Shown in pieces: positions 4,919-40,007 of a DNA stretch of 64,000 bases. The position numbers and the translations under genes are program-made. This stretch comes from Chthoniobacterales bacterium. GTDB taxonomy: Bacteria; Verrucomicrobiota; Verrucomicrobiia; Chthoniobacterales; UBA10450. The notes beneath the pieces are model-generated. The model had not been told where the DNA came from and searched no databases. It saw only the letters and a program-made list of their open reading frames with translations. The stretch spans positions 1 to 64,000 of the forward strand of contig DATENU010000004.1 of the NCBI GenBank assembly GCA_035274845.1, given 5' to 3'. Numbering within the stretch: the first letter of the stretch is position 1; every line of letters starts with the position of its first letter.

Positions 4919-5785
4919 CTACTTCGCAGGGGCCTCGAGCTGTTTGAGACCCTCCGGTGTGAATTGAGCGTCCGCGTAACTGGGACCGCGCTTAATGCTC
5001 GACCCGGTTATGTGGGTGACGGAACCACGGGGCCCGGAAACCTCCAGATCGGCCGGGAGCGAGTCGCCTCCGTCGAGCAACATGCGGGTGATGTTGATGC
5101 GTCGAACGACTTTGCCTGAGCTGTCGTATTTCTCGATCTGGAGCGGCACCATCCGGCTTGGATCAATCCAGCTTTTCACACTCGCGTAAGAGGAGCTGGA
5201 GTCTTTATCGGGTTTCGATTCCAGAATCTGGCAGGCAAAGCGGCCCACGTTTTCCGTGCCGACGATCGTCTGCTGGCTCCAGGCGAAAGGACTATCGATG
5301 ATGTCTTCGTAGGAAAGCTCGCTGCCAAAAAGGGGCTGACTCATCTCCCCCGCCCCAATCGATTTAAGAGTGTCGGGCAGCTTGAGGAGTGTCCCGGTGA
5401 ATTTGTGTCCGGAGCGGTGGAGCAGCACCGATTCACCTTTCCGTTCTTTCGGAAAAAGAATCTGATAAACGATATCGGTGGTAGCGGCGGAAACCCGAGA
5501 CTTGATCTGCACCTGGAGGGTATCGCCGCCGGCCTGCATCCGAATCCGCACGAACGACGAACCGCTCTCCTTGGCCCTGAGCTTGGCCGCCAGCTCCGAG
5601 CCATTTTCGGCCGCGCCGGCCAGGATCGGGAACGCGAGGAAAATTGCGGCGAAAATAAGGGATGTGACCCGCCTTCGCTGTGCTTCGGCGTGGCAGGCGT
5701 GTGAACGGTGACGTGTGACGTGTGACATGTTGTGACGAATGACAGTAACGCTCTGACGAGCCTTTTCTCCTTTTTCTTCAGCCAT
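4919..5785 (-). CDS. LolA-like outer-membrane lipoprotein-sorting protein (PF17131-type)
   Basis: 288 residues. After a hydrophobic signal segment at residues ~41-58 (SLIFAAIFLAFPILAGAA) the mature part reads like the COG2834 LolA-like family: FVRIRMQAGGDTLQVQIKSR, YQILFPKERKGESVLL, a GTLLKLPD stretch and an YSD-like beta-rich C-terminus with SWIDPSRMVPLQIEKYDS. Such proteins bind acyl chains in a half-barrel and commonly sit beside MacB-type transporters. It is the last gene of the PKS operon and its ATG overlaps the permease stop by 8 nt (ATGGCTGA). The ~40 residues before the signal segment are encoded by short TGTGAC-type repeats and look like an in-frame insertion; an internal ATG at residue 20 is an alternative start. 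Confidence 0.8.
   Translation of the reverse strand: MAEEKGEKARQSVTVIRHNMSHVTRHRSHACHAEAQRRRVTSLIFAAIFLAFPILAGAAENGSELAAKLRAKESGSSFVRIRMQAGGDTLQVQIKSRVSAATTDIVYQILFPKERKGESVLLHRSGHKFTGTLLKLPDTLKSIGAGEMSQPLFGSELSYEDIIDSPFAWSQQTIVGTENVGRFACQILESKPDKDSSSSYASVKSWIDPSRMVPLQIEKYDSSGKVVRRINITRMLLDGGDSLPADLEVSGPRGSVTHITGSSIKRGPSYADAQFTPEGLKQLEAPAK
5664..5743. repeat. TGTGAC-type short repeats inside the LolA-like gene's 5' end
   Basis: On the plus strand the units GTGTGAACG, GTGACGTGTGACGTGTGAC and TTGTGACGAATGAC follow one another, next to a GCCTTCGC..GCTTCGGCG palindrome. The segment is in frame and encodes the odd His/Arg-rich stretch ahead of the signal peptide. It is unlike the flanking coding sequence, so a repeat insertion between start codon and signal peptide is likely. 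Confidence 0.5.
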
Positions 5786-6893
5786 GCAAGGCGAGGCTCG
5801 GCGTCAGGCGCGAACTTCGCCAGGCCGGGTAGAAGCCGCTCAGGACGCCGACGCAGACCGAGATGCCAACGGCCATCACGATAAGATTGACGCTGAGGTC
5901 CGGCTCCAGCAGGCCCCGGATGGCGGGCGCGGATTTCATCAGCTGAACACCGACAACGCCCAGGCCCACGCCAATGATCCCACCGAGGAGCCCGAGCATG
6001 GCCGACTCCAACAAGATCATCTTCACGATCCGGGTTCGTCTCCAGCCGAGGGCCAGCAGAACCGCGATCTCCTGTTTTCGTTCAAATACGCTCATCAGCA
6101 TGGTGTTCGTTACGCCCAGCACGCCGACGAGCACCGCCAGAAGCGACGTGCCCCAGCTCATGCCGTTGATCACGCGGTAGCCCTCCGTGTTCACCAGATG
6201 CTCGCTCGCGGGCTCGGCGTGGGCTTCCGGAATTTTTCTCGATATTTCGTCGCAGAGCTTCCGGATTCCCACGTCATCGGTCCCGGGAGCCACCCGCACG
6301 TCAATCGCGCTGATTTGGTCGTGGTTCCCGGTGATCTGCTGGAGCAGCGGCAGAGAAAGAATGATCGAGCCGTTCTCGACAAAGGCCCCGCCCTCGGCGA
6401 TGCCGACCACAGCCAGCTCTTCCGTTTCGATCTGAACGGTGTCCCCCACTTTCTTTTTCAACACGTCCGCCGCGGAAGTGCCCAGAACCACAGCCCGCTC
6501 GTTCTGATCATTCGGCAGGCGGCCGGAAACAAGTTTCAGGTTACCCCAGGTGAACCCACCCCATTCGCGCCCCGATATCACCATCAATTCGGCTTTTTCG
6601 ATGCTCATCAATTCCACCAGGCCCTGGCTCGTTCCGGCCAGGCCCGGCAGGTTCGCAATGCGATCGCGGGTCGAAGCCGGGAACGGCTTCGGAGTCAATG
6701 AACCGCGCATGTTGTGCACGACGATGTCGGTCCCGCGGGACTTCATGCCGGCGGTCCAGCTGGTGAGCAGCCCCCGGGACAAGCCGATCAACGCCACCAC
6801 CGCGGCAATACCCACCGCGATGCCCAAAAGAGTCAATCCGGTCCGGACCGGCCGGCGTTGCAGACCGCGCGTGACTACGTTGAAAAATGTCAT
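5778..6893 (-). CDS. MacB/FtsX-type ABC transporter permease
   Basis: 371 residues with the MacB layout: an N-terminal membrane segment after an RRPVRTGLTLLGIAVG motif (residues ~12-38), a periplasmic MacB_PCD-like domain (residues ~40-240), and three C-terminal FtsX membrane helices starting near GTSLLAVLVGVLGVTNTML and ending with GFYPAWRSSRLTPSLALHG. The cytoplasmic ERKQEIAVLLALGWRR loop is the standard coupling helix. The chosen ATG follows the ATPase stop by one base (TGAAATG); the frame continues 18 codons upstream but that would overlap the ATPase. With the ATPase and LolA-like protein it forms a lipid or lipoprotein export or extraction unit serving the PKS product (inference). Confidence 0.9.
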   Translation of the reverse strand: MTFFNVVTRGLQRRPVRTGLTLLGIAVGIAAVVALIGLSRGLLTSWTAGMKSRGTDIVVHNMRGSLTPKPFPASTRDRIANLPGLAGTSQGLVELMSIEKAELMVISGREWGGFTWGNLKLVSGRLPNDQNERAVVLGTSAADVLKKKVGDTVQIETEELAVVGIAEGGAFVENGSIILSLPLLQQITGNHDQISAIDVRVAPGTDDVGIRKLCDEISRKIPEAHAEPASEHLVNTEGYRVINGMSWGTSLLAVLVGVLGVTNTMLMSVFERKQEIAVLLALGWRRTRIVKMILLESAMLGLLGGIIGVGLGVVGVQLMKSAPAIRGLLEPDLSVNLIVMAVGISVCVGVLSGFYPAWRSSRLTPSLALHG

Positions 6894-6894
6894 T

Positions 6895-7617
6895 TCAGGA
6901 ACGCACGGGAAGATTCGATGGCTCACCGTCGAAAACAACCCGGCCATCTGTCATCTGAACGGCGCGCGAGGCTCGCCGAGCCACAATCCTATCGTGGGTA
7001 ATCAGGATCATCGTCATGCGGCGTTCGCGCTGAAGATTGACCAAAAGATCGAGAATGAGCGCGGCGTTTTCGGTATCCAAATTCCCGGTGGGTTCGTCGG
7101 CCAGAAGGACCGAAGGCGAATTAGCGAGACTTCTGGCAATGGCGACGCGCTGACGTTCTCCACCGGAAAGTTTCGCCGGAAAATGGTCCACTCGCTTCTC
7201 CAATCCGACCGCGTTCAATAGTTCGCGAGCCCGAGCCGTCCGCTTCGCGCGCGACTCGCGACCTTCGAACATCGGAATCTGGACGTTCTCGATCGCGGTA
7301 AACGTGGGGAGCAGATGAAAGGATTGAAAGATGAAGCCGATCTCGCGGGCGCGGTAGGTCGAGGCATCATAATCGTCGAGCAACGACTTTCCCCGGTATC
7401 TCAGGGTTCCGGAACTGGGTCGATCGAGCGAGCCAAGCATCTGGAGCAAAGTAGTCTTCCCGCTGCCGCTTGGGCCAACAATCGCCACAAACTCGCCATC
7501 GCGAATCTGGAAATCCACGCCGCGCAAGGCCTGCACCTGGCCGTCGTCGTAATCCTTGGTGAGCCCGGCCGCTTCGAAGACAAACGGCAAGGCCGCGGGT
7601 GTTTCGTGATTACTCAC
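6895..7617 (-). CDS. MacB/LolD-type ABC transporter ATP-binding protein
   Basis: 240 residues from a GTG that overlaps the desaturase stop as GTGA. The frame extends 12 codons upstream to an ATG, which would overlap the desaturase by 40 nt. Walker A (GPSGSGKTT), Q-loop (FIFQSFHLLP), ABC signature (LSGGERQRVAIARSL), Walker B (VLLADEPTG) and the His switch (LITHD) are all present, so it should hydrolyse ATP. The sequence is of the LolD/MacB family, which powers lipoprotein release or efflux by mechanotransmission rather than classic transport through the membrane domain. Its partner permease follows after one base. Confidence 0.93.
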   Translation of the reverse strand: MSNHETPAALPFVFEAAGLTKDYDDGQVQALRGVDFQIRDGEFVAIVGPSGSGKTTLLQMLGSLDRPSSGTLRYRGKSLLDDYDASTYRAREIGFIFQSFHLLPTFTAIENVQIPMFEGRESRAKRTARARELLNAVGLEKRVDHFPAKLSGGERQRVAIARSLANSPSVLLADEPTGNLDTENAALILDLLVNLQRERRMTMILITHDRIVARRASRAVQMTDGRVVFDGEPSNLPVRS

Positions 7618-8588
7618 GAGACCGGCTGCCCGTTCCGTGAGGCGTCGCGCCATTGAGCGCCGACGCGGGGATTGCCCAGGCTGCGAATCACATCCGGAAG
7701 CGCCTGCCGATAGCTGATGAAGGGAGCCACGTCGCCCGGCTCCTTTGGCTCCAGGATCGCGGTGAACTGCGGCAGGACGCGATGCGGCAGCCCGGCATTT
7801 TCATGATGCACGCCGTGATACGGCTCGTGGAGCAGCGTGTAAGCGAAGATCCGCCCGAGCCAGCTCTTCGGCACGATGCTGCGAGTGGAGCTGTTGACCG
7901 TGTTCCCCATCAGTCCCAGGTGTTCCACGTACTTCCGCCAGGTCTGGAGATTGGCCGCAATCATCGCCGGCGCCAGGTAAATCCAGACAAAATATTTCCA
8001 GACCCCAAAAAGCGCGACCGCCGTGAGGATCGCCGTCCAAGAGACGAAGGAGAGCGCGAGCTCGAACCAAATTCGGCGCCTTACCTTCCGGCTCCGAACC
8101 GGTGAGTTCTGCTCGAAGAAAACGCGAAAGAAGATAATCGGCGAATAGAACAACGCGACGGTCAATTCCAGGAAAGCGGACAGGCCGCGCTTCCAACGGG
8201 ACATTCGGGGCAGGACGAAGGGCCAGAGCTCTGTGTCCTTCTCGGTGCCGAGATACATGTGGTGCCGCTGATGCACCACCCGGTAGAGATTGAACGGGAG
8301 AAAGCTGAAAATTCCGATAAGGACGCCATCGAATTCATTCAATCGCCGGCTCTTTCGCAGGAGGCCGTGGGAGGCTTCATGAAAGCCGATGAGCAATCCG
8401 TGCATGAGATGCGCAGCGACCAGGACCAGCGGTGCAGCTAACCAAAGCCATCCCTTCCAGACTGCCGCCCAGATTGCGATCTCACAGAGGGCAAGGAGGA
8501 AGACCAGCGTCTGAAAATCGACACTGTTAATGGGATGCTCCTCTCGCAGGGTCGGAGCTTTTTCGATCTCGAGGGCCAGGCTAACCAT
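7614..8588 (-). CDS. membrane fatty-acid desaturase
   Basis: 324 residues, PF00487-type integral membrane di-iron desaturase or hydroxylase. The three histidine boxes are intact: HEASH at 70-74, HQRHH at 106-110 and a C-terminal HEPYHGVHH near residue 255-265. Hydrophobic segments at ~26-65, ~145-165 and ~185-215 fit a membrane protein with the boxes on the cytoplasmic side. It follows the condensation-domain gene through a TGAAATG junction and overlaps the ATPase start. In this operon it probably introduces a double bond or hydroxyl into the polyketide or fatty acyl product; the substrate cannot be read from sequence. Confidence 0.92.
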   Translation of the reverse strand: MVSLALEIEKAPTLREEHPINSVDFQTLVFLLALCEIAIWAAVWKGWLWLAAPLVLVAAHLMHGLLIGFHEASHGLLRKSRRLNEFDGVLIGIFSFLPFNLYRVVHQRHHMYLGTEKDTELWPFVLPRMSRWKRGLSAFLELTVALFYSPIIFFRVFFEQNSPVRSRKVRRRIWFELALSFVSWTAILTAVALFGVWKYFVWIYLAPAMIAANLQTWRKYVEHLGLMGNTVNSSTRSIVPKSWLGRIFAYTLLHEPYHGVHHENAGLPHRVLPQFTAILEPKEPGDVAPFISYRQALPDVIRSLGNPRVGAQWRDASRNGQPVS

Positions 8589-8589
8589 T

Positions 8590-9933
8590 TCAGCTCGTCA
8601 GGGCGGCAGTTTGACGTTCGGGAACGTGACAGACGTTTTCGAGCACCGTTCGGAATAAACGTCCCAGTTCTTCAATTTCAGGTTGGGAAAAAAGATTTTC
8701 GCGGAATAGCCAGACGACTTCGAGCTCATCGCCGCGTTCCGTAACTTCGCAGCCCAAATCGAACCGGGGCGTTCCGGTCGAGCGCATTCTTAGCTTCAGA
8801 GAAAGCCCGCGAATCTCGAAATCGGGCACGGGATGATTCTGCAAGGCGAACCGGACCTGAAAAATCGGGTTGTACTTTGGCGACGGACGCTCGTCCAGCG
8901 CGCGGACGAGCTCGGCAAACGGCACCGCGTTGGCAAACGAGTCGACCGTGGATTCGTGAACCGTTCGTAAATGCTCGGAGAACGGGCGGTCTCTTTCGAC
9001 CTGAGCCCGCAGTGGCACAACCCCGGAGAAATATCCCATCGTCTCGCGAACATTCGGTTTCGTTCGATTTGCGACCGGTGTTCCCACGACAATGTCTTCG
9101 GCGCCGGTCCAGCGCGACAGCGTCACCTGAAACGCGGCCAGCAAAGTACTAAAAAGAGTGGCGCCACTGCGGCGAGCCAATTCCTTGACCGCTCCGCTGA
9201 TCTCCACGGGCAGGAGCGCAACCAGGCGGCGCGGCCGAAAAACGACGTCGGATTCCTCCGGTATGCTCCACAGGCGCTTGATTCCGCTGAGGCGGGATTT
9301 CCAGAAAGCGATCCGTGGTTCCAGCTCGGCCGGTTGCCAGAAGGCCCTCTCGGCAGCGCCCCACGCGGAATAAGAAGTCGGAACGGACGGCAGTTTATCT
9401 TCTCCGCCCGCGCGCTGTTGGAGATAAGCGGCGCCCAGATCCTCAACCAAAACGCCCAGGCTCCAGCCATCCGCGATCGCGTGGTGAATCGCGAATACCA
9501 TCAACTGGTCGTCGGGAGCACGGCGCAGAATGTCGAGTCTGTAGAGGGGACCCTGGAGCAGATCGAAGGGCTGGGAAAAGGTTTGGCGCTCGAGCTCTTC
9601 CATCTCGCCCGCGGACGTCTGCGGCGAAATGTCGCGAAACCGGATCACCGGCTGGCTGTGCTTCCGGATCAACTGCACCGGCCCGTTTTTTCCCGGCAAA
9701 AACGAAAGGCGCAAGACTTCCTGCCGATCCACCACTCGCTGAAAGATTGCCAAAGAATCCTCCTGCGAGATCAGCCCGCCAATATGAAGGACGCAGCAAA
9801 TATGGTTCGAAATGTCCGAGGGCGGCGCGGGCGAGGTTTCCCACAGCTCGCGCTGGGAAAATGTCTGGGGATGGAGCTGCGCGTCGCCGCTCTCAATCCA
9901 TTGCTTGAAACGAGCCTGTTTTCCCTCAGACAT
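8590..9933 (-). CDS. free-standing condensation-domain / PapA-like acyltransferase
   Basis: 447 residues, a single condensation domain with no adenylation or carrier domain. The catalytic motif HHAIADG lies at residues 150-156. A second signature, VVGTPVANRTKPNVRETMGYFSG-like, is at ~290-315; the usual late DFGWG motif is replaced by FDLGC. The family joins a carrier-bound acyl chain to an amine or alcohol (NRPS C domains; mycobacterial PapA enzymes use lipid alcohols). The ATG overlaps the PKS stop by 8 nt (ATGTCTGA), so it is made with the PKS. As the PKS has no thioesterase, this protein is the best candidate for releasing its chain. The acceptor is unknown. Confidence 0.9.
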   Translation of the reverse strand: MSEGKQARFKQWIESGDAQLHPQTFSQRELWETSPAPPSDISNHICCVLHIGGLISQEDSLAIFQRVVDRQEVLRLSFLPGKNGPVQLIRKHSQPVIRFRDISPQTSAGEMEELERQTFSQPFDLLQGPLYRLDILRRAPDDQLMVFAIHHAIADGWSLGVLVEDLGAAYLQQRAGGEDKLPSVPTSYSAWGAAERAFWQPAELEPRIAFWKSRLSGIKRLWSIPEESDVVFRPRRLVALLPVEISGAVKELARRSGATLFSTLLAAFQVTLSRWTGAEDIVVGTPVANRTKPNVRETMGYFSGVVPLRAQVERDRPFSEHLRTVHESTVDSFANAVPFAELVRALDERPSPKYNPIFQVRFALQNHPVPDFEIRGLSLKLRMRSTGTPRFDLGCEVTERGDELEVVWLFRENLFSQPEIEELGRLFRTVLENVCHVPERQTAALTS

Positions 9934-12900
9934 GCGAAATCGCCTCCACCGAAGGATCTCCTCCGCGGCCGCCAATCAGGCCGTCGATCTCTTCGTCCGA
10001 AAGAACGTCGAAATCGATCTCGTCCGCAACCCCGTTGACCTCGTTGGCGGTTTGAGGGGCAGCCATTGCGGGCGTGGCTGCGGTCGGCGCGCCACCTCCC
10101 AGGTGCGCCAGCATCAACGCCGCGATCTGTCCGATCGTGCGCGCTCGCATCAGGCTGGTCGGTGGAAGCGCGACGCCGATGGCGGCTTCGAGTGAGTTTT
10201 CAATTTCCACGCCCATCAGTGAGTCGAGACCGAGATCGGTAAGCGGTTGGTCGTCACGCAGCGTGTCCGGTTTCACGCGAAGAACGGAACCGACAACCTC
10301 CCGCACGGCCTGTGCGATCACTGCTTCCTTTTCCGCAGGCGCGGCCGACTCGATCCGGTTTCGCCAGTCACTGGTGACGCCGCCGCTGTCGTCGCCCTCG
10401 ACCGCGGAAAAGATGCGCTCGTAGAGCGGGTTGGCTTGCGAGCCCCGGAAGAAACTTTTCCATTTCGCCCAATCAACGCGGATGGCGGCGACCTGGGTGC
10501 TGGCCGTGCGGAGGGACGATTCGAGAATCGAAATCACTTCGCCAGGGGACAATTCCGTGGTGCCCTGTTTGGCCAGGAACTCAGCGACGCGCTCATTGCG
10601 GGCGACGTATCCCTCACCACCGAGGACGCCCCAGTTGATCGTCAGCGCCGGCAGACCCAGCGCGCGCCGGTGGTGCGCGAGCGAATCGAGAAATGCATTC
10701 GCGGCTCCGTAATTGCCTTGCGCCGGATTCCCGAAAATCGAGGAGATCGACGAAAACATGACGAAGCAATCCAGCGGCATATCGCGCGTGGCTTCGTGGA
10801 GCAACCAGGCGCCGAGCGCCTTCGGGCGAATGACCGTGGCCATTCGATCCCGGTTCAGTTTCGCGAGCACGGCATCGTCTATCGCCATGGCGAGATGAAA
10901 GACACCACGAAGCGGCTGGCCGGCCTGGCGAATTTCAGCGAACAGCCGCGAAATGTCCTCCGTCGATCCGGCATTGGCTTTCACAACCTGCACTTCGATT
11001 CCGCGATCGCGCAGGCTCTGGACAAACGCCTCGGCTTCCGGCGTGGCCGCGCCGCTGCGACTGGAGAGGACGAGATGGCGCGCGCCAGATTGCGCCAGCC
11101 AGTTGGCCAGCACTTTGCCGAACCCGCCAAATCCGCCAGTGATCAGGTAGCAGCCGTCCGATTTGATCTCGAATTTCGGGGCGATTGGCTCGCCGCGCCG
11201 GGGCAGGAACGCTTCGGGGAAAGAGACGATGACCTTCCCGATATGCTTGCCGCCGGCCATGAGCCGAAACGCCGCATCCACATTGAAGGCCGGGAAGGAA
11301 CGGAAGGGCAGAGGACGCAGCGCGCCCTGCTCCACCAGCCCGGAGATTTCTGCGAGCATCTCGCGGGTCAGCGATTCGTCGCCCGCAAAGACCGCGTCCA
11401 TGGCGACGACGTGAAAGGAGGCGTTGCGCCGCAACGGCCGGAGCGGAATGCGCGAGTTCTGGTAAATGTCGCGTTTGCCGATCTCAACGAAGCGGCCGAA
11501 CTCGGCGAGGCAGGACAGGCCCATGGGAATCGCTTCGCCGGCGAGCGCATTCAACACGACGTCGACGCCCCGGCGATCGGTAAGCTCCATGACGGCTTCC
11601 GCAAAATCACCGCGGCGCGAGTCGATGACATGTTTCACGCCGAGAGTTTTCAGGAGCTCGCGTTTCACCGTGCTGCCCGCGCTGGCGATGACTTCGGCCC
11701 CCAAATAATGGGCAATCTGGATCGCCGCCATGCCGACGCCGCCGGCGCCGGCATGAATGAGCACCCGCTCACCTTTGCGGACTCGCGCGACATTTTTCAG
11801 CGCGTGCCACGACGTCATGAACACGACCGGAATTGTCGCCGCTTCGTCAAAGGAAAGGTTGGCCGGAATCTTCCGCACGTTGCCCCCGCGCGCCGTGGTT
11901 TGAGTGGAGAGTCCGAACACGGCCAGGCCAAAGACGCGATCGCCCACCTTGACATGACTCACCTCCGAGCCCACTGCCTTCACCACCCCGCCCACCTCGT
12001 CTCCGAAGATTCGGGCATCCGGTGCTTCCCCCGGATAAAGCGCGAGCGCCTTGAGCACGTCGCGGAAATTCATGGCGGCGGCTTTAACATCGATCAGGAC
12101 TTCGCCCGGAGCGCACTCCGGAGGAGCGAAGGGAACAAATTTCAGGGCGTCGAGATGACCGCGCTCGCGTGATTCCAGGCGCAAAGGGACACCGCGATCG
12201 AGATCGCGTTGGATCGAGGGACGCCCGCGATCGAATCTCTGGACGTAGCGCGCTTCGCCTCGGAGAGCGACTTCGCGATCGGCTTCGGTGCGCAGCAACT
12301 CGTTCCAAACCAGATCCAAATCGGCGGTGGAATTTGCCGGCGGGAGATCGATCCCGCGGCAGGTGCAGTTCGGGTACTCGTTTTGAATGACCCGCAGCAA
12401 ACCAATAGCGGGAGCTTGCGTGACCGCCGTTGGTTTCTCGTCGCGTCCCGCCGGTTGCGCGCCGCGCGTCACCGCGTCGATGCGCAGTTTCGTTGTCGGC
12501 AGAACCGTTTCGAGCGCCTGGGCGAGGTGAAGGAGCGCGTCGGTCCCGAACAGGGCTTCATCATCGAAGCCTTCGTCGAGGTTCCACAGGTAGACGATCC
12601 GTTCCAAGTCGGCGTTGCCGATGAACGTTTCGAAAAGTTGCCGCCAGTCTCCGGGCGTTTCCGGTCGGATCGTGAAGCCGTCGACCTCCGACGAGCTGAA
12701 AGCAGCTCCGCGGCGAACAGTCTGGCAACGAGCGCCGGCCGCGCCCAGCCGGTCGGCCAATGATTTTCCGAAACCGCCCTCGTCCGCAAAGATGAGCCAG
12801 GATTTTTCCGCCGGAACCTGAGCGATGGACTCGGTTACGGCCGGAGCGTCGCCAGGCTTGCGTCCAAGAATTCCAATCTGGCCTTCGCCGTAGCGGCCCA

Positions 12901-15900
12901 TCAGTCCGGGGAGCGAAGCGGTTTCGCTGAAGCCAGCCTCACGGAGAAGAGTCTCCCACTGCGAACGCCCGAGCAGCGGATGGACGCTGCGCAAATCGCG
13001 ATCGGTGAACCGCCACCATCCGCTCGTCAGGCCGAAGACCGCTTCCGTCCAGAGCTGCGGCGTGGCCACGTCCATGAAGAAGAGCGAACCGCCGGGCGCT
13101 AGCAGATCGTAAAGGTTGCGCAGAGCGGCGCGCACATCGGCCGCGGCGTGCAGCACGTTCGTTCCGACCACGAAGTCGAATGAGCCGGGCTCAAAGCCCT
13201 GTTCGGCAGCAGGTTTTTCGAGGTCGAAAACCTTCGTCTCAACCTCGGGGAAGGCGGTAAGTTTTTGCAGCGCTGCCGGGAAGAAACCGGCCGAGACATC
13301 GGTGAAGGTGTAAGAGTGGAGACCGCGTTCGAGCGAAGGCAGAAGTTGGGCGGCCAGGCCGCCGGTCCCCGCGCCGACTTCCAGAATTCGCAACCCTCGG
13401 CCTTCGGGCAGCGCGCGCGCCCCTTCCTGCACTCCCGCGGCGATGGCCGCGAGCCAGTGACTCGTAAGCAGCCCGTCACCGTAAAACTGTTCGAGATGTT
13501 CTGCGCCCGCGCCGGCAAAGAGAACCTGGATCGCATCCTTTTCGCCGCGCAAGATTAAACCCAGCTCGGCGCAGGTCGCGGCGATCAGCAGAACTTCGGG
13601 CAAATGACCGGGATTCCGCTGGATGAAACCACGCTGCATTGCCGATGCGGAATCGGCCGCCTTTCCGAATGCCGCGGTCGGGCGATAGCCGCTTTCAGCT
13701 CGCTCCAGAAGGCCGCGCTCTTCCAGTTTCAAGATCAGCTGTTCGAACACCGGGCGCATTTGCTCGGCGACGCGCAAAGTGCCGGCGGTAATATCTACTC
13801 CTGGTTCCGCGCCCATCTCGCGGAGCCCGGCGCAAAGCAGGAGCGCGGCCAGATCATCCTGGGCAGCAATCACCCCGATCAACCGGTCACGTCCACGGAC
13901 CGCAATCACGTCGTCCAGAGCTGCTTGCGCCACGTCCCGCAGGCGGCGCAGCGGCACAGGCTCCAAGGCGGCCGGTTTCGATGCCGCCGGTGTCCGCTCC
14001 CAATCTATATGGTACAGAACGTCGCGGGTGCCGCCCAAGGTATCGCGCCGCACGCCAGCCACGCTGATCGCGCGGAATCCGTCGATAAGGACGCACGGTT
14101 TTCCGGCGTCATCGTAGAGTCCGATCCGTCCTTCAACGAACTCAGAGTTACATTCGAGCACGCTGGCCCGGACTCGGGTGGATGCTCCGGGCGAGTGCAG
14201 GAAAAGAATGCGACCGAACCGCACCGGCAGCTTGAGCTGCGATCCGCGCGCCTCGACCGTCGCGCGCCCCGCCGAAAATACGTGCAAGGCGCCATCGAGC
14301 AGGACCGGGTGCAGCGGATATTCGCCCGCCCGTGAGGAACTCGCTTCCGAAAGCGTCACCCGCCCCGCCGAAATTCCCTGGGCCGCCGAGAGCTCGCGCA
14401 CGGAACGAAACTCGTCGCCGTAACGCAGGCCGAGATCGTTCATATAACGATAGAACGCGTCGATATCGACCGGCTTCAGATTGTCGGCCGCGCGATTGCT
14501 TTCCGTCTCAAAAGTCGAAGTGGCAAAGCCGGATTCCGTGCGCTCTCCGCGCATTGAGCCCACCACATGCAACGACCAGGACGCGCCTTGATCGAAGCGG
14601 CTCTGAATCGTGAAAGTGCGATCGGCCGGCTCATACGAAATCTCGAGCTGAACCCCGGCGGCTGGGTCGGCGAGGATCAGCGGTTTGCGGATTTCAAAAT
14701 CTTCGACCACGAACGGCTGACCTTCGAAAAGCTGAAGGCCGGCTTCCAGGATCAAATCGACAAATCCCGCCGCGGGAAAAATAACGTGGTTCTCGACCTT
14801 GTGATCTTTAAGGAACGCCATGTGCCGGCTATCGAGCCGGGCGGTCCAGGTGGGAGTCGCGCGCGGCAGGCGCGCGTCGAGCATCCCGCGTCCGCCCGCT
14901 CCGAGCCGGCTTTCGCGCCAGTCGGCAGCTTCGTTCCACCAGCGGCTGCGATCCCACGCGTAGGCGGGCAGTGAAAGGAGACGCCGCGAGGGCGTCATGG
15001 CTTTGAAATCGAGCGCCACTCCGGCGCGATGCAGATCCATTGCCGCCTCAAGCAGCGACTCGTGTTCGCGTTCCCGGCGCACCGAAGAGATCACAACCGG
15101 TTTCGCACCGTTCCGGCCGGCCAGACATTCCGCGATGGAATGAGCGAGGGCCGGATGCGCGCCGAGTTCCAACCAGATGTCTACGCCGAAGTCCGCGATC
15201 GCGTTGATCGCTGGGGCAAACTGCACGGGTTGCCGGACGCCACGAGCCCAATGGGTCGCGTCGCCCGCGTTCCCATTAAGACGGTTGCCGGTGACAGTGC
15301 TGAAGAGCGGAACGGTTTCGGGCTGAGGAGCAAGATCAGTCAGCGCATTTTCGAGCGCGTCCGCCGCCGGCTGCATCATCGCGTGATGAAACGGGTGATC
15401 GACCCGAACGAGCCGGGCGAAGACGCCCTGCGTCTCGAGTTCCGAAAAGATTGCTTCGATGGAATGGCGCGGACCGGCCAGGGTGAGCGAGCGCGGACCG
15501 TTGAAGGCCGCGATCGAAACCGTGGCGTCGTGCTTTTCGATCAGCGACTGAGCTTCCTGTTCGCCCAGTCCCACCGCGAGCATCCTCCCTTCGCCTCGCG
15601 CGCAACCCTCCATGAAGCGCGCGCGCAAAGCCGTGATGCGCGCGCCTTGTTCGAGCGAGAACAGACCCGCAACGCAGGCCGCCGCGATTTCACTGACGCT
15701 ATGGCCGAGGACGGCGGAGGGATGCACGCCCCACGATTTCCACAGCTCGGCCAGGCCGACCTGCATCGCGAAAATGGCAGGCTGCGCAATCTCAGTGCGA
15801 TGCAGTTGTGAAGCTTCTTCGGCGCGGCCGAGTTCTTCCAGAAGCGAAAAGGTCGCGACTCCTTGCAACGCCGCGTCGCATTGCTCGATGACGTGACGGA

Positions 15901-17593
15901 AGACCGGCTCATGCTGCATCAGTTCACGGCCCATGCCCCACCATTGCGGTCCCTGTCCGCTCATGATGAATGCGACGCGCGGCGCGTGCTCTGGCCGCGC
16001 CGTGAACGAAGTCCGGACTTTCACGCTGTCTTCCTTGATCGCGAAGGCATCGAGCTCCTGGATGAGTTCGGCGATGGAGCGCGGGACAAGCGTGAGCCGA
16101 TGCGCATGGTGGTTCCGCCGGTGACCGAGGGTGTAGGCCAAATCGGGCAAGACGGGCGAATCGCCGTTGAGATTCACTCGCTCCGTCAGCCATGAAGCCA
16201 GCTTCATGGCATAACCGCGAAGAGCGTCTTCCGAGCGGGCGGAAAGCACAATCGGCCAGGCGCGGTCGTCCCAGAGATGTGAGTGATCCGCATGGGGAAC
16301 CGGTGGCGGCTCGGTCAGGATAACGTGCGCATTGGCGCCTCCGAATCCGAAAGAGTTGATGCCGGCCAGGCGTTCACCATCCGTTTCCGGGAACGGCTCG
16401 AGGTCGGTCGGGACGCGCAGTTTGAGCTGATCGAAATCGATGTGTGGACTCGGCGAAGAGAAATGAACGCTGCCGGGAATTTCACGATGCTGAAGAACCA
16501 GCATCGCCTTCACCAGACCGGCGACACCGGCAGCCGTTTCAAGATGGCCCATGTTGGTCTTGACCGAACCAATGGGAAGCGGCGTCGAACGCTCCTGGCA
16601 GAGAGCCTCCGCGAGGGCGTGCGCCTCGATCGGATCGCCCACCGCCGTGCCCGTGCCGTGCGCCTCGACAAATCCGATTTGCGCTGGCGAAACCCCGGCA
16701 TCTTTGCACGCGTCCTGGACGAGCCGGGCTTGTGCTTCCGCACTCGGAAGCGAGATGCCGTTCGTGTGACCGTCCTGATTGACCGCGGTTCCGACGATCA
16801 CGCCCAGGATCGGATCGCCATCTGCGATCGCCTGGGAGAGGCGCTTCAGCAGCACCATGCCCGCGCCCTCACCCCGCACAAAACCGTTCGCCGACGCATC
16901 GAACGCCGCGCATCGGCCATCGGGGGAGAGCATCGAAGCCTGCGAAAATCCGATGAATCCGCCGGGCGTAATCATTACCGTTACACCGCCCGCAAGGGCC
17001 GTGTCGCCGCGCCCGGCCCGAATGTGCTCGCACGCGGCGTGAACCGCAGTCAGGGCCGACGAACACGCCGTGTCCATCGCGATACTGGGTCCTCGCAAAT
17101 TCAGGCAGTAGGAAATTCGATTCGCGGCAATCGAGTGCGCGCTGCCGGTGGCGGTGTGGGGCGCGATCCCGAAATGGTCGAACGCCGTGCTTTGGATTCC
17201 CTGGTAATCGTTGTGCGAAATGCCGACGAAGACCGCGATGTCGCTCCCTTTCTCGAAGTCGAGGATAACACCCGCGTTCTCGATGGCTTCCCATGCGGTC
17301 TCGAGCAGCAATCGGTGCTGGGGATCAACGTAAGGCGCTTCCCGCGGCGAGATGCCGAAAAACTGCGGGTCGAACTTGTCGATCTGATCGAGGAACCCGC
17401 CGCGCTTAACAAACGTTTTGCCCGGGATCGCCGGCTCGCGGTCGAAGTAGCGCTCCACATTCCAGCGATCGCCTGGCACCTCGGTGACGGCGTCCCGACG
17501 TTCGACGAGCAGCTTCCAAAAAGATTCTGCGTCGTTAACGCCGCCGGGAAAGCGGCATCCGATTCCGATGATAGCGATGCGATCTTTGTGCAT
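9926..17593 (-). CDS. highly reducing type I polyketide synthase, single module, KS-AT-DH-MT-ER-KR-ACP
   Basis: 2555 residues. KS 1-~430 (catalytic Cys177 in DTACSSA, then HGTGTAVGDPIEA and KTNMGHLE); AT ~535-850 (Ser632 in GHSVSE; HPFHH where malonyl-type enzymes have HAFH); DH ~900-1190 (His931 in DHKVENHVIFP, where the family's Gly is Asn; Asp1100 in LLDGALH); C-methyltransferase ~1370-1600 (LEVGAGTGG); ER ~1810-2115 (HAGAGGVGMAA); KR with structural half before the ER and catalytic half ~2145-2330 (TGGFGGFG; Tyr2295 in GNYGAAN); ACP ~2400-2485 (Ser2458 in GLDSLMG). All active sites are present, so the chain should be fully reducible and alpha-methylated from SAM. One module with no thioesterase suggests iterative use. 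An acidic tail (DFDVLSDEEIDGLIGG) follows the ACP and may dock the condensation protein. First gene of the operon. Confidence 0.96.
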   Translation of the reverse strand: MHKDRIAIIGIGCRFPGGVNDAESFWKLLVERRDAVTEVPGDRWNVERYFDREPAIPGKTFVKRGGFLDQIDKFDPQFFGISPREAPYVDPQHRLLLETAWEAIENAGVILDFEKGSDIAVFVGISHNDYQGIQSTAFDHFGIAPHTATGSAHSIAANRISYCLNLRGPSIAMDTACSSALTAVHAACEHIRAGRGDTALAGGVTVMITPGGFIGFSQASMLSPDGRCAAFDASANGFVRGEGAGMVLLKRLSQAIADGDPILGVIVGTAVNQDGHTNGISLPSAEAQARLVQDACKDAGVSPAQIGFVEAHGTGTAVGDPIEAHALAEALCQERSTPLPIGSVKTNMGHLETAAGVAGLVKAMLVLQHREIPGSVHFSSPSPHIDFDQLKLRVPTDLEPFPETDGERLAGINSFGFGGANAHVILTEPPPVPHADHSHLWDDRAWPIVLSARSEDALRGYAMKLASWLTERVNLNGDSPVLPDLAYTLGHRRNHHAHRLTLVPRSIAELIQELDAFAIKEDSVKVRTSFTARPEHAPRVAFIMSGQGPQWWGMGRELMQHEPVFRHVIEQCDAALQGVATFSLLEELGRAEEASQLHRTEIAQPAIFAMQVGLAELWKSWGVHPSAVLGHSVSEIAAACVAGLFSLEQGARITALRARFMEGCARGEGRMLAVGLGEQEAQSLIEKHDATVSIAAFNGPRSLTLAGPRHSIEAIFSELETQGVFARLVRVDHPFHHAMMQPAADALENALTDLAPQPETVPLFSTVTGNRLNGNAGDATHWARGVRQPVQFAPAINAIADFGVDIWLELGAHPALAHSIAECLAGRNGAKPVVISSVRREREHESLLEAAMDLHRAGVALDFKAMTPSRRLLSLPAYAWDRSRWWNEAADWRESRLGAGGRGMLDARLPRATPTWTARLDSRHMAFLKDHKVENHVIFPAAGFVDLILEAGLQLFEGQPFVVEDFEIRKPLILADPAAGVQLEISYEPADRTFTIQSRFDQGASWSLHVVGSMRGERTESGFATSTFETESNRAADNLKPVDIDAFYRYMNDLGLRYGDEFRSVRELSAAQGISAGRVTLSEASSSRAGEYPLHPVLLDGALHVFSAGRATVEARGSQLKLPVRFGRILFLHSPGASTRVRASVLECNSEFVEGRIGLYDDAGKPCVLIDGFRAISVAGVRRDTLGGTRDVLYHIDWERTPAASKPAALEPVPLRRLRDVAQAALDDVIAVRGRDRLIGVIAAQDDLAALLLCAGLREMGAEPGVDITAGTLRVAEQMRPVFEQLILKLEERGLLERAESGYRPTAAFGKAADSASAMQRGFIQRNPGHLPEVLLIAATCAELGLILRGEKDAIQVLFAGAGAEHLEQFYGDGLLTSHWLAAIAAGVQEGARALPEGRGLRILEVGAGTGGLAAQLLPSLERGLHSYTFTDVSAGFFPAALQKLTAFPEVETKVFDLEKPAAEQGFEPGSFDFVVGTNVLHAAADVRAALRNLYDLLAPGGSLFFMDVATPQLWTEAVFGLTSGWWRFTDRDLRSVHPLLGRSQWETLLREAGFSETASLPGLMGRYGEGQIGILGRKPGDAPAVTESIAQVPAEKSWLIFADEGGFGKSLADRLGAAGARCQTVRRGAAFSSSEVDGFTIRPETPGDWRQLFETFIGNADLERIVYLWNLDEGFDDEALFGTDALLHLAQALETVLPTTKLRIDAVTRGAQPAGRDEKPTAVTQAPAIGLLRVIQNEYPNCTCRGIDLPPANSTADLDLVWNELLRTEADREVALRGEARYVQRFDRGRPSIQRDLDRGVPLRLESRERGHLDALKFVPFAPPECAPGEVLIDVKAAAMNFRDVLKALALYPGEAPDARIFGDEVGGVVKAVGSEVSHVKVGDRVFGLAVFGLSTQTTARGGNVRKIPANLSFDEAATIPVVFMTSWHALKNVARVRKGERVLIHAGAGGVGMAAIQIAHYLGAEVIASAGSTVKRELLKTLGVKHVIDSRRGDFAEAVMELTDRRGVDVVLNALAGEAIPMGLSCLAEFGRFVEIGKRDIYQNSRIPLRPLRRNASFHVVAMDAVFAGDESLTREMLAEISGLVEQGALRPLPFRSFPAFNVDAAFRLMAGGKHIGKVIVSFPEAFLPRRGEPIAPKFEIKSDGCYLITGGFGGFGKVLANWLAQSGARHLVLSSRSGAATPEAEAFVQSLRDRGIEVQVVKANAGSTEDISRLFAEIRQAGQPLRGVFHLAMAIDDAVLAKLNRDRMATVIRPKALGAWLLHEATRDMPLDCFVMFSSISSIFGNPAQGNYGAANAFLDSLAHHRRALGLPALTINWGVLGGEGYVARNERVAEFLAKQGTTELSPGEVISILESSLRTASTQVAAIRVDWAKWKSFFRGSQANPLYERIFSAVEGDDSGGVTSDWRNRIESAAPAEKEAVIAQAVREVVGSVLRVKPDTLRDDQPLTDLGLDSLMGVEIENSLEAAIGVALPPTSLMRARTIGQIAALMLAHLGGGAPTAATPAMAAPQTANEVNGVADEIDFDVLSDEEIDGLIGGRGGDPSVEAISHV

Positions 17594-17809
17594 AAACAGC
17601 CTGCCGCCGTGAAGCCCGATGATATAACCTATTTTCTATGGCAACGAGCGAGAAATGTTCTGGAGCCCGGCCACGAGGCCGGTGGCACTGGCAGCCGATC
17701 CTCACGCGGCTATTGAGTTAACCTGTAGACAGGAAAATTCCATTAATTATTCGGCCCGACAGCGAAAAAACGATTATCGGGCCGGGGAACTTCGAATTAA
17801 GAGAACATT
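17594..17809. promoter_or_regulatory. divergent promoter region between PKS operon and asparagine synthetase
   Basis: This 216-base gap separates two divergent starts, so promoters for both must lie here or further in. A perfect palindrome CCGGCC-ACGA-GGCCGG sits at 17667-17682 and could bind a dimeric regulator, although similar palindromes occur elsewhere as repeats. An AT-rich stretch with TTATAT lies close to the PKS start on the minus strand. No convincing -35/-10 pair was found. Confidence 0.4.
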
Positions 17810-19807
17810 ATGTGCGGCATTGCGGGAATGATCGATCTGGCGGGCCAGCGTCCCGTGCCCGAGGGAAGCATTCAACGGATGTCCCGGGCGCTGTTGCATC
17901 GCGGGCCCGATGAGGAGGGCTTCCTCATTCGGCCGGGACTCGGCCTGGCATCGCGTCGGCTGAGCATCGTCGGGTTGGCGGACGGCCAGCAGCCGATCTT
18001 CAATGAAGACCGGAGCGTCACGGTTGTTTTTAACGGGGAGCTGTTCGATTACGTCGAACGGCGGGACGAGCTCAGGGCGCGCGGACACCGGTTCGTCACT
18101 CATTGCGATACCGAAATCATCCCCCACTCGTGGGAAGATTACGGGGATCACATGTGGGAACACCTGCGGGGGCAATTCGCCATCGCGCTCTGGGATGAGA
18201 AACGACGGCAGCTCCAAATCGGACGCGATCGTTTCGGCATCGCGCCGCTTTTCTGGTCGCGGCAGGACGACTGGCTTCTTTTCGCATCCGAAATCAAGGG
18301 ATTGCTCGCTTCCGGCATGGTCCCGGCCCGGCCCGATCGGCGCGGGATCGATCACGTCTTCACCTTTTCAGCGGTGCCCGGTCCGCGAACCTGTTTCGAG
18401 GGCGTCCAACTTCTCACCGCCGGGCATTGCCTGAGGATTACTCCCGCCAACGGGAACGGCGCGGGTCCGGTGGTGGAAGAGCGGGCGTTTTGGGAGATGG
18501 ATTTTCCGGATCAGGGTTCGGAGGAACGGGGGGACGATCCGAAGCGACTTGTGGACGAATTCGAGAGGATCTTGCTCCAGGCGGTCGAGGAGCGATTGCG
18601 AGCGGATGTTCCAGTGGGCGCCTATCTTTCCGGCGGCGTCGATTCAAGCATGATCGTGGCGCTGGCCTGCCATCTTAAAGGGCCGGCCATCAATACCTAC
18701 ACCGTCCGCGTGCATGAACCCGAGCTCGATGAGCTCGATGCGGCCAGCCTTTCGGCGCGGCACATCGGCGCCAAGCCGCCGATCGTCCAGGATTTTCGCG
18801 ACGAAGACGCGCTGGCAACTTATCCAAAATTGATCACCGCCGCCGAGGCACCGGTGATCGACACCGCCTGCGCCGCCCTTCTCCAGCTCTCCGGACGAGT
18901 CCACAGTTGCGGACAAAAAGTTGTGCTCACCGGCGAAGGTGCGGACGAATGGCTGGTCGGCTATCCCTGGTACAAGGCGGCGAAGCTCCTGGGGTATCTC
19001 GACCTGATTCCCGGTCTTGGGCTTAGTCATGCCGCCCGCAATGCCTATCTCCGCCTGAACAAGGTCCCTCATTTTCCCAACGCCTGGCGACGCGAAGTTG
19101 AGAATTCCGTCGGTGGACAGAACGCCTGGATCGACGCCTACGGAATGCTCGCGATTTCGAAGTTACGGTTCTACAGCGACTCAATGCACGAAGCGATCGG
19201 CCCGACGAATCCGTGGACTGAATTAAATTTCCCGCTGGAGCGCGCCAAGCGATGGGCGCCGCTTCATCGCGGGGTCTGGGTTGCCGCCCGTGTCCTTTTG
19301 GCCGGGCACCTCCTCCAGGCCAAGGGCGACCGCGTCGCAATGCATTCTTCCGTCGAAGTGCGCTACCCGTTCCTCGACGAAGACGTCTTCGATTTTCTGG
19401 CGAAGCTGCACCCAAGCTGGCGGCTGCGCGGGTTCCGGGACAAACACCTGCTGCGTCTGTTGGCGGAACGTTGGGTGCCGAAATCGGTGGCACGCCGCCA
19501 CAAGGTGATCTTCCGGGCGCCTCTGGACAGCTTTCATATGGAACCGGAGCCGCCGTTTGTCGCGCAGCTATTGAGCGAGGAATCGCTGCGTAAGACCGGC
19601 TATTTCGATCCCGCCGCCGTGGCTCGCTGGCGGACCGACTTCCGCAAAATGCGGGCCGGTTCGCTGCCGCGCCTTTCGGTTGAGATGGGTCTGATGGCGG
19701 TCGCGGGGACGCAACTCTGGCACCATCTCTTCATGGGCGGCGGGCTGGCGGATTTGCCGCAGTGGTCCGCGGTGCCAACGCCTGCGGCGGTCGAAGCCGG
19801 CGCGTGA
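17810..19807 (+). CDS. asnB: asparagine synthetase (glutamine-hydrolysing)
   Basis: 665 residues. The N-terminal Ntn glutaminase domain starts MCGIAG with Cys2 as nucleophile once Met is removed, and has the RRLSIVG and NGELFDY motifs (residues 1-~200). The synthetase domain has the ATP pyrophosphatase P-loop SGGVDSSM near residue 275 and VLTGEGADEW near residue 375, and runs to ~630. It amidates a carboxylate, normally aspartate, using glutamine and ATP. It is divergent from the PKS operon with 216 bases between, so it might amidate the PKS product or supply asparagine for it; a housekeeping role is equally possible. Confidence 0.9.
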   Translation: MCGIAGMIDLAGQRPVPEGSIQRMSRALLHRGPDEEGFLIRPGLGLASRRLSIVGLADGQQPIFNEDRSVTVVFNGELFDYVERRDELRARGHRFVTHCDTEIIPHSWEDYGDHMWEHLRGQFAIALWDEKRRQLQIGRDRFGIAPLFWSRQDDWLLFASEIKGLLASGMVPARPDRRGIDHVFTFSAVPGPRTCFEGVQLLTAGHCLRITPANGNGAGPVVEERAFWEMDFPDQGSEERGDDPKRLVDEFERILLQAVEERLRADVPVGAYLSGGVDSSMIVALACHLKGPAINTYTVRVHEPELDELDAASLSARHIGAKPPIVQDFRDEDALATYPKLITAAEAPVIDTACAALLQLSGRVHSCGQKVVLTGEGADEWLVGYPWYKAAKLLGYLDLIPGLGLSHAARNAYLRLNKVPHFPNAWRREVENSVGGQNAWIDAYGMLAISKLRFYSDSMHEAIGPTNPWTELNFPLERAKRWAPLHRGVWVAARVLLAGHLLQAKGDRVAMHSSVEVRYPFLDEDVFDFLAKLHPSWRLRGFRDKHLLRLLAERWVPKSVARRHKVIFRAPLDSFHMEPEPPFVAQLLSEESLRKTGYFDPAAVARWRTDFRKMRAGSLPRLSVEMGLMAVAGTQLWHHLFMGGGLADLPQWSAVPTPAAVEAGA

Positions 19808-19808
19808 C

Positions 19809-20573
19809 CTAGAGTTTCGCCAGGGTCTCCCGCGCGCGTTGTTTTGTTTCGGGATCGTCTTTCTCGGCGTCGGGCATTCCGAGGCCTTTGTTGATCAATT
19901 CCCGCGCTTCGTCTTTTCTGCCCATTTGGCCGTAAATCCGCCCGAGCTCGATGTAGTGCATGAGCCGTTTGGGATTAAGCTCGATCGCTTTTTTCATGTC
20001 TCGCTCGGCTTCCTCGAATGAGCCCTTCGGCAGCTGGCCGTAAACCAGTCCGGCCAGAAATCGCTTTGCTCCGCTGATCTCCGCCAGGACACGGTTCCAT
20101 CGGCCGAGAATATGCCAGGCGTTGTCGTTGCGCGGATCGATCGCCAGCGCCTTGTCTACCGAATCCTTGATGCGGGGAGAGGCAGAGACTTGTTCTTTGG
20201 TGGGCAGGAACGGCAGCATTTTTCCGAGGGTGATCGCGGGCGCGAGCTGCGCGTCGCAGTCCTTTGGTCCGCAGGCCGCGGCTCGCTCGGAATAATCGAG
20301 CGCGAGGTGCCCAAGTCGCAGTTTTTCCTTGGTATCCTCCGCGTCTGTCATCAGATAGCGATATTGCCGGGCAATCCGGACGAGCAGGTCCGGATTCTTC
20401 GGTTCCAGCTTTTCGGCCGCCAGATAGAGCGGCAACGCCTCGCTCGCCTGGAATTTTCGGTCGAACACCCTGCCTTTGTCGATCAGGCTGTCGGCCGATT
20501 CCGCGGCGGAAGCGATCTTGACCAATAAGAGCACGAAAACAACGGCCAGAATGCGGTGGATTAGAGACTTCAT
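19809..20573 (-). CDS. exported TPR protein resembling regulator of microtubule dynamics (RMDN) type
   Basis: 254 residues with an N-terminal signal peptide (LAVVFVLLLVKIASAAE). Helical repeats follow: EALPLYLAAEKLEPKNPDLL, AAACGPKDCDAQL, ALAIDPRNDNAWHILGRWN and AIELNPKRLMHYIELGRIY, the spacing seen in RMDN-type TPR proteins. The WHILGRWN segment is characteristic. Exported and probably a periplasmic scaffold; no enzymatic residues are evident. Transcribed toward asnB with only one base between the stops. A TTG codon precedes the chosen ATG. Confidence 0.75.
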   Translation of the reverse strand: MKSLIHRILAVVFVLLLVKIASAAESADSLIDKGRVFDRKFQASEALPLYLAAEKLEPKNPDLLVRIARQYRYLMTDAEDTKEKLRLGHLALDYSERAAACGPKDCDAQLAPAITLGKMLPFLPTKEQVSASPRIKDSVDKALAIDPRNDNAWHILGRWNRVLAEISGAKRFLAGLVYGQLPKGSFEEAERDMKKAIELNPKRLMHYIELGRIYGQMGRKDEARELINKGLGMPDAEKDDPETKQRARETLAKL

Positions 20574-20743
20574 CAAAGTACCTGCAGCAACAGTAGACGC
20601 TCTTGAGATTCGTTTGTGCGCGAATTCTTGGCCGGTATTCGATCGGGAGCGCTCTTATTCAGACGGTACATCGAGGCGCAATGTTCAATTCCAAATTCCT
20701 GGCCGGACGGGGCCAGCCACCGGCCCGCCCACGAATCACCTGT

Positions 20744-21346: not shown

Positions 21347-21374
21347 AAACCCGCGGATTTACCCCCGCGGGTTT
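21347..21374. terminator. bidirectional intrinsic terminator
   Basis: A perfect 10-bp stem AAACCCGCGG / CCGCGGGTTT with an 8-base loop is followed by TTCTTC on the plus strand, 33 bases after the stop of the exported protein gene. On the minus strand it overlaps the last codons of the amidase gene (Asn-Pro-Arg-Gly), so it can serve both convergent genes. Confidence 0.75.
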
Positions 21375-22726: not shown

Positions 22727-22809
22727 GATGCGCGCACTAAACAGCACGCCGTTCGGGCGCGCCACAACGGATTCGGAGCGCTAGCCAACAACGGCCGCCA
22801 GCCACGGCG

Positions 22810-33800: not shown

Positions 33801-34101
33801 CGAGATGACTCTCGTCCTTGAGCTTCGCGCTGGTCGCGAACCAGGTGGCGGCTTCGTCGAATTTGGAGGCATCGAAGGCAAGCCATCCGATATCGGACGC
33901 GATTTGCATCGCATTCTTGTCAGCCTCGGCCCGTTCCTTGGTGTTCTCCGGCAACGCTGCCCGGTCGGCGTCGGCCTTCTTGAATTGCGCCTCCAAGGTC
34001 GCGCGATCCGGCTTTGGTTTCTCATGCGCGTCCATCGGCCAATGGATCGCCATGATGGCGAGGACAATGGCAATAAACGGAAAGCGAGTGAGACTCTTCA
34101 T
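30895..34101 (-). CDS. TPR-CHAT caspase-like protease, exported
   Basis: 1068 residues from an ATG ten codons inside the frame, chosen because it starts a signal segment (SLTRFPFIAIVLAIMAIHW). Residues ~40-640 are TPR-like helical repeats, including ALKELNEAITLKRSMGQ and AKKLIDEAQAADAKTG. A coiled-coil stretch (~650-720) precedes the CHAT domain at ~760-1068. The His-Cys catalytic pair is present: His930 in HFATHGIL and Cys977 in LSACESALGD, followed by EAFSSAGATTVLASLW. It is a separase/caspase-fold peptidase. Last gene of a three-gene operon with the CHASE2-cyclase 48 bases upstream. Exported CHAT proteases are common in this phylum; substrate unknown. Confidence 0.92.
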   Translation of the reverse strand: MKSLTRFPFIAIVLAIMAIHWPMDAHEKPKPDRATLEAQFKKADADRAALPENTKERAEADKNAMQIASDIGWLAFDASKFDEAATWFATSAKLKDESHLAAKRYWEEYLRVTAVELDGKVDDQIKDERAQLATADEAKKAILQKLMHGWEKLRYLNRYNAITMLETIARDNYDSENLLKYCEQELEIRRAEMAYLQKVSAPKDELDEKNAQIATALERVASAEAELALFEKAEKHGLEALALRQALPVEMAERKLDESLSSLARMYAYNIGDLKKARDYFQQTLVSIESSAAVRKKALDEDKYFSAEQKPKMSKEELAKHEEKQAQTRDMKIALDAMSQAMALMNLAEISQEEGDLKTAFSFGQKAFKVADDLPKGGYLNLFELFRARVRARVLGDMASLHADSGEIDTALKELNEAITLKRSMGQDEWTAQSIVQAADLAYQKGDLDGARHLIEQARQIFAAAHKINSVVNATNFLAVIARDQEKLDEAAKYADEAVVLARKTSNLGALSGSVRTFASIRLKQNKLDDAKKLIDEAQAADAKTGSVNDRIGTLGISGEIFEARGENDKALTEYKEAVKLIESIRATAASETSFADVKRNYRPYERIVRALLKLNRVDEAFDYLNRAKSKKLQESLRLSSMKSGDKGLQALLDRANGLETRLQTTNAQLQAEQSKPEADRDKAKIENLKQVVATTQGEFRKVVEQIKASNPNYEKFMTVNPKALKETQRSIPAGVMLIQYAPLGEQLYVFLVSKENVKIVIAPAKPEELWKKIKTLRKQIISGESGAPLTKNLMSLYDSLIAPIESDLEPMKVAAFIPNQLLFYLPMQALAKKMPDGSTRYFVEDKQIVYLTAADVMKVVQLPDEEKSRDGMVAFGNPTGANLPAAESEVKAIAQVFPSTEVLSGGDVTKVALSTEQRLNKRIVHFATHGILNATTPSESYIQLAASPNTEQSHLTVGEVWDLPFKKVTLVTLSACESALGDKEPDGGEITTLAEAFSSAGATTVLASLWSVGDESTKELMVEFYRQLAAGASKAEALQGAEIKLLKNPKYSRPLYWAPFILMGDWR

Positions 34102-34149
34102 GGCACAACCAACAACGCTGCTCTGGTTCATCTTTGCAGAAGAAGAAAA

Positions 34150-36920: not shown

Positions 36921-37041
36921 CCTCACAGCCCCAGAATAAACGCCAAAACGCCGAATAATTGCACGCAGAATATCAAAATTCTCCCCTGTGCTCCAAGAAG
37001 ACGCTCAGTGACTTCGGGCGAGCTCATGTTACACTCTCCTG

Positions 37042-40005: not shown

Positions 40006-40007
40006 GG

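Follow-up and report, generated by a model that had tools for sequence, protein, structure and literature searches.

A conserved Verrucomicrobiota locus joining a polyketide synthase to a condensation enzyme and a Lol-like transporter, with a possible role in a methyl-branched envelope lipid

A lone polyketide synthase (PKS) module packed against genes for an ABC transporter and a LolA-like protein raises the question of what chain is made, how it leaves the enzyme and where it is sent. In the window, by which we mean the whole 64,000-nucleotide stretch of Chthoniobacterales DNA analysed here, six such genes lie tightly packed on the minus strand at positions 4919–17593. With somewhat more confidence than doubt, we read them as a pathway devoted to an envelope lipid, a reduced and methyl-branched polyketide, in which a condensation enzyme would release the chain and a Lol-like route would take the product to the outer membrane.

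The six genes had been reported in a preliminary description as joined by overlaps or 1-base gaps, and this is what the sequence contains, the joint to the LolA-like gene being less certain than the others. With the condensation gene begun at its conserved start (aa 15 of the annotated frame, likely start 9933), its overlap with the PKS gene is 8 bases. One base separates it from the desaturase gene, the desaturase and ATPase reading frames overlap, and permease homologs begin at aa 19 (likely start 6893), leaving a 1-base gap to the ATPase gene. In its annotated 5' part, within the first ~45 codons, the LolA-like frame carries a dispersed genomic repeat (about 40–55 bp, at 5660–5732), copies of which occur on at least 5 other contigs at 81%–91% identity, so the true start of this gene may lie further in. 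On its other side, the PKS gene is separated from a divergent amidotransferase gene by 216 bp (17594–17809), a probable promoter region in which a scan found no sigma-70-like consensus match. Predicted topology divides the products of the set into cytosolic, membrane and secreted proteins.

The PKS (9926–17593, minus strand; 2,555 aa) has the Pfam domain order KS-AT-DH-MT-ER-KR-ACP. It had been described as a single fully reducing module with a C-methyltransferase (C-MT) and with neither a loading module nor a thioesterase (TE), and both the domain assignments and the motifs of 28 full-length orthologs (62%–80% identity) bear this out. Its PS-DH domain is the only one found in the genome. Kept in the 28 orthologs are the KS motifs DTACSSAL, EAHGTGT and NxGHxET, the DH motifs HxVxxxxxFP and DGxLH/Q, the MT motifs LEVGAGTGG and NVLHA, the ER motif GAGGVG, the KR motifs GGFGGFG with IDD and NYxxANAF, and the ACP motif LGLDSLM. 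The AT motif GHSVxE is likewise kept, and nearly all of the orthologs have xPFHH, which we take to be the malonyl-type motif. Divergence from the PKS of genome G010 is 0.16, 0.10 and 0.52 at codon positions 1, 2 and 3, a pattern typical of purifying selection; together with 28 full-length orthologs in the same order, it argues that the PKS set is not a product of chance. The C-MT core (12926–13420, minus strand; aa 1392–1556) has the C-MT of CurJ as its best solved match (167 bits). Because the catalytic His of NVLHA is kept but Asp replaces the Glu of the CurJ YEATT position in nearly all members of the family, C-MT activity is likely, not certain, and we count the substitution against the envelope-lipid reading.

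Such a module would load malonyl-CoA and extend an acetyl or fatty-acyl starter, probably iteratively over several rounds since it stands alone. The C-MT would methylate at the alpha position, and full reduction would leave a saturated methyl-branched acyl chain on the ACP. Neither an acyl-AMP ligase nor a sugar or glycerol enzyme that would name the starter or the acceptor is found in the set. Alternatively, though this strikes us as improbable, the enzyme could work only once, extending a preformed fatty acyl chain a single time and then C-methylating and reducing it, so that the condensation enzyme would attach a 2-methyl fatty acyl group to some component of the envelope. A single round has to be considered because modular CurL (475 bits) outscores both MAS (407 to 426 bits) and LovB (335 bits) as a match to the KS, a relation that also counts against the envelope-lipid reading and that is a ranking of phmmer scores, not a tree; the similarity of the C-MT to modular CurJ agrees with it. 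Against a single round, the upstream module, the docking partner and the acyl-AMP ligase are all absent from the cluster.

Taken as a whole, the PKS has MAS as its best solved match (1,021 bits), and against the NCBIfam equivalog for Pks2 (NF041183) it scores 1240.7 bits, below the cut-off of 2400. The locus shares with the mycobacterial MAS/Pks2-PapA-MmpL systems a fully reducing single-module PKS without a TE, a separate condensation-fold acyltransferase and dedicated export. It differs from them in its embedded C-MT and malonyl-type AT motif, whereas MAS/Pks2 draw their branches from methylmalonyl-CoA; in having no FadD/FAAL and no MmpL among the conserved genes, an ABC transporter and a LolA-fold protein being present instead; and in the amidotransferase and amidase that it has in addition. 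Fungal highly reducing PKSs of the LovB type have the same order of KS-AT-DH-MT-ER-KR-ACP followed by a condensation (C) domain, but here the C enzyme is a separate protein, export genes are present, and the KS and MT are closer to those of bacterial modular enzymes.

How the chain would leave a module that lacks a TE is suggested by the stand-alone condensation enzyme (8590–9975, minus strand; 461 aa; PF00668, 1.2e-69). Its active site reads HHAIADGW, and HHxxxDGW is kept in 34 of 34 orthologs examined. It had been called a condensation or PapA-type acyltransferase; the condensation type stands, and on its model matches, which were to PF00668 and NRPS models only, the protein is best called NRPS-C-like and not specifically PapA. 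We suggest that this enzyme, possibly recruited by the PKS tail, would stand in for the missing TE by transferring the chain onto an acceptor with an amine or hydroxyl group. The tail in question is acidic, follows the ACP (9971–10024, minus strand), has the form (V/I)D(L/F)xALSDEEIxxLLG in most of the 28 orthologs and is, from its sequence, a possible docking motif. In enacyloxin biosynthesis, the stand-alone C domain Bamb_5915 releases the chain (PMC9113145), and the two systems are alike in their free-standing C enzyme with HHxxxDG and in a carrier with a C-terminal tail. The enzyme described here lacks the N-terminal beta-hairpin docking domain of Bamb_5915; such a domain is ruled out, because the roughly 15 to 20 residues that precede the C fold leave no room for it.

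The condensation enzyme is also where the main rival explanation takes hold, namely that the product, instead of being a structural lipid, is an acyl amide or acyl amino acid that serves as a diffusible specialised metabolite. We regard this as possible but unlikely. The condensation enzyme would then join the polyketide to an amine, consistent with its NRPS-like character, its HHxxxDGW motif and its best matches, which are amide-forming C domains. The cluster, however, has neither an adenylation domain nor an amino-acid carrier, and the next gene in the set is better suited to a membrane-bound lipid. This gene (7614–8588, minus strand; 324 aa; PF00487, 3.9e-32, 112.4 bits) encodes a member of the membrane di-iron desaturase/hydroxylase family, in line with the desaturase of the preliminary description, with three histidine boxes that are invariant in the orthologs and a matching predicted fold: its AF2 model matches the desaturase-like chain 8xks_K (Z 22) and AlkB (Z 14), while a sequence search of the PDB returned no match. 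In the envelope-lipid pathway, this enzyme would desaturate or hydroxylate the chain.

A pointer to the cell envelope comes from the last three genes, in which a LolA-fold protein and a LolD-like ATPase are packed with the PKS. The ATPase (6895–7653, minus strand; PF00005), of LolD/MacB type, has LolD as its best NCBIfam model, at 246.1 bits and below the cut-off of 307.75. The permease (5778–6947, minus strand), with MacB_PCD and FtsX domains in Pfam, reaches 36.4 bits against the lolCE model, whose cut-off is 362; other permease paralogs in the same genome match it partially, at 27%–37% identity. The last protein (4919–5785, minus strand), which carries a signal peptide, exceeds the PF17131 threshold of 30 bits with 79.2 bits (3.9e-22), and its AF2 model (pLDDT 85) matches 4z48 at Z 27.4 and Porphyromonas gingivalis LolA3 at Z 26.7, with classical LolA and LolB at Z 9 to 13. 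The LolA-like carrier of the preliminary description is thus confirmed by its fold. The MacB-type pump named alongside it holds as a dedicated ABC transporter of the Lol/MacB superfamily; the label "MacB pump" itself gives way to "Lol-like", which fits better because the ATPase is LolD-like, a LolA partner is present and there is no MacA or TolC. A MacB drug pump working with MacA and TolC is ruled out on the same ground, neither protein being in the set.

For export, the LolD-like ATPase and the permease would lift the product out of the inner membrane and hand it to the LolA-fold carrier for delivery to the outer membrane, and this partner too is better suited to a membrane-bound lipid than to a diffusible metabolite, for which the ABC transporter would be one possible exporter among several. 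The LolCDE-LolA system is similar in its LolD-like ATPase, FtsX/MacB-type permease and LolA-fold periplasmic protein, and different in that the present proteins score below the LolD and LolC/E cut-offs, are encoded in a PKS operon and have no LolB identified among the set genes. LolA-like parts also occur in the clusters for aryl polyene envelope lipids, which resemble this locus in combining a polyketide-like acyl chain with a LolA-like protein that serves the outer membrane (PMC8253772). Their enzymes, however, are discrete and of type II and their transporter is of the RND class, where this locus pairs a type I PKS with an ABC transporter. Judged from its sequence, with an embedded C-MT, an ABC transporter and a type I PKS, the cluster belongs with neither the MAS/PapA/MmpL nor the aryl polyene systems. 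No description of this gene set was found in the literature, in agreement with the earlier impression that none exists; "undescribed" refers here to the literature searched and to nothing wider. A survey of soil biosynthetic gene clusters names ladderane-type clusters in Verrucomicrobia (PMC7298704), and a review treats biosynthetic gene clusters in general terms (PMC12714770).

Three further genes, left out of the preliminary description, belong to the same conserved set and point, from their sequences, to nitrogen chemistry. Divergent from the PKS is an asparagine-synthetase-like glutamine amidotransferase (17810–19807, plus strand; 665 aa; PF00733/PF13537), which scores 397 bits against TIGR01536 (cut-off 267) and whose N-terminal MCG and SGGVDSS loop are kept in orthologs. 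It is followed within the conserved neighborhood by a TPR protein with a signal peptide (19809–20576, minus strand), whose ortholog adjoins the amidotransferase in 20 loci, and by an amidase-signature enzyme (21359–22765, minus strand; PF01425, 3.9e-61) with a lipobox, found in nearly all intact orthologs, that would make it a periplasmic or outer-membrane lipoprotein. Most carriers of the cluster have all three, arranged in one of two ways, the variant being that of G003 and G029, where the amidase gene comes downstream of the LolA-like gene. G110 has three consecutive amidase paralogs (L084:1–3709), all of them downstream of its amidotransferase gene. Amidotransferase orthologs (at least 71% identity) occur in 10 of 12 cluster carriers and, among the same relatives, in 0 of 46 non-carriers, where the best matches do not exceed 40% identity, an association of about 1e-9 by counting with relatedness ignored. 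Since the ortholog is missing from all 46 non-carriers searched, this is probably not a general housekeeping enzyme.

An amidotransferase together with a secreted amidase suggests that amide bonds are formed or cleaved on one face of the inner membrane or the other. For an envelope lipid, the amidotransferase would make or install an amide on the acceptor or the product, and the amidase would act on that bond after export. For a diffusible metabolite, the amidotransferase would provide a carboxamide and the amidase lipoprotein would serve in periplasmic activation or resistance. That the amidase is secreted favors the metabolite, as does the best solved match of the amidotransferase, the hydroxyamidotransferase 7ylz; enzymes of this kind work within biosynthetic cassettes, an example being a TsnB-like cassette (PMC13418202). 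The likeness to these (hydroxy)amidotransferases lies in a two-domain glutamine amidotransferase beside biosynthetic genes, while their amine-oxidation partner is not seen here. A bolder proposal, to which we give little credence, is that the outer membrane receives a polyketide lipid of a new class, one that bears a carboxamide. A bacterial equivalent of the fungal PKS-C architecture, divided between two proteins, would make it, a Lol-like route of its own would move it, and cytosolic amidation followed by periplasmic deamidation by the amidase lipoprotein would mask and then unmask the product.

Whether these genes function together can be asked of their distribution. Condensation orthologs (42%–78% identity, against a background near 30%) occur in 35 genomes of a single Verrucomicrobiota class, comprising 28 of 213 genomes of the window's order and 7 others, from families f35 and f15; there were none in 388 genomes across the phylum outside this class. 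A contig scan with a single condensation sequence returned only AV42 (the same as G179, and counted once) and a cyanobacterial background match, and a tblastn search of plasmids with the condensation protein gave only NRPS background at about 30%. Synteny of the PKS with the transporter and LolA-like genes, on which the preliminary description had made its proposal depend, is conserved in relatives: the order PKS, condensation enzyme, desaturase, ATPase, permease and LolA-like gene, with the divergent amidotransferase, is found in most loci long enough to show it, over many genera and in at least three family-level lineages besides the window's own. Each of the 36 gene pairs shows correlated ortholog distance matrices, with none of 500 permutations per pair reaching the observed value. 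Along with the TE-less module and the LolA-fold and LolD-like pair, this synteny and co-inheritance are what tilt us, modestly, toward an envelope lipid, and a locus kept with few changes over distant families speaks against a diffusible metabolite. That the genes are unrelated and adjacent by chance could find encouragement in the loss of the transporter part from three genomes and of the amidotransferase part from family f12; given the conserved order, the correlated distances and the co-occurrence of the amidotransferase, we consider it vanishingly improbable, and for the six-gene core conserved synteny rules it out.

The exceptions to this conservation count against the envelope-lipid reading. 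G002, G007 and G025 keep the genes for the PKS, condensation enzyme, desaturase and asparagine-synthetase-like enzyme without ABC or LolA-like genes beside the desaturase, so export by this ABC transporter is not strictly required, and the loss is a point in favor of a diffusible metabolite. In G002, a broken ABC ATPase remnant lies directly after the desaturase (L041:3245–3644); no close permease ortholog was found elsewhere in G002 or G025, and G007 has only paralogs at 39%–41% identity. A remnant at the transporter's place, with no close permease elsewhere, implies that a transporter part once present was later lost. The amidotransferase, TPR and amidase genes are missing from three f12 genomes, and in G119 the condensation-desaturase pair lies apart from the PKS, which is on another contig. 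Patchiness among close relatives, with 28 of 213 genomes of the order carrying the cluster and no PKS at all in the same-genus genomes G005 and G006, also favors a metabolite. Horizontal transfer or differential loss is likely, because the PKS tree departs from family labels and the nearest relatives of G000 belong to other genera. In f12, a glycosidase-like lipoprotein, GH1-like by eye, stands upstream of the PKS at the amidotransferase's place (L090:14159–15499 and L050:14164–15594).

The carriers in genus g106 of family f35 bring the cluster within reach of experiment. Five of them hold tandem tubulin pairs, with two pairs in G319 and a tandem btubA/btubB at L109:104–2775, and one g106 tubulin is nearly identical to the solved BtubB along all 426 residues. 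As we take BtubAB to mark the genus Prosthecobacter, the cluster occurs in a cultured genus, and its product should be directly testable by lipid extraction. The lipids and specialised metabolites of Verrucomicrobiota are little known. If the envelope-lipid reading is correct, a class of this phylum that includes soil lineages and Prosthecobacter would have its own methyl-branched envelope lipid system, built from parts unlike the mycobacterial ones, and a PKS product would ride a Lol-type carrier.

Elsewhere in the window, the large PKS-like reading frames at 40008–46892 were considered as a second PKS and ruled out, the product being a HAMP-repeat histidine kinase. This 2,294-aa hybrid kinase (minus strand) has at least 13 HAMP and three receiver domains, and a second hybrid kinase (37861–40023) adjoins it. 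Nearby, at 30895–36926 (minus strand), are genes for a TPR-CHAT protein (1,078 aa), a CHASE2-adenylate/guanylate cyclase (702 aa) and a 223-aa protein without a family match, and these three possibly form one operon.
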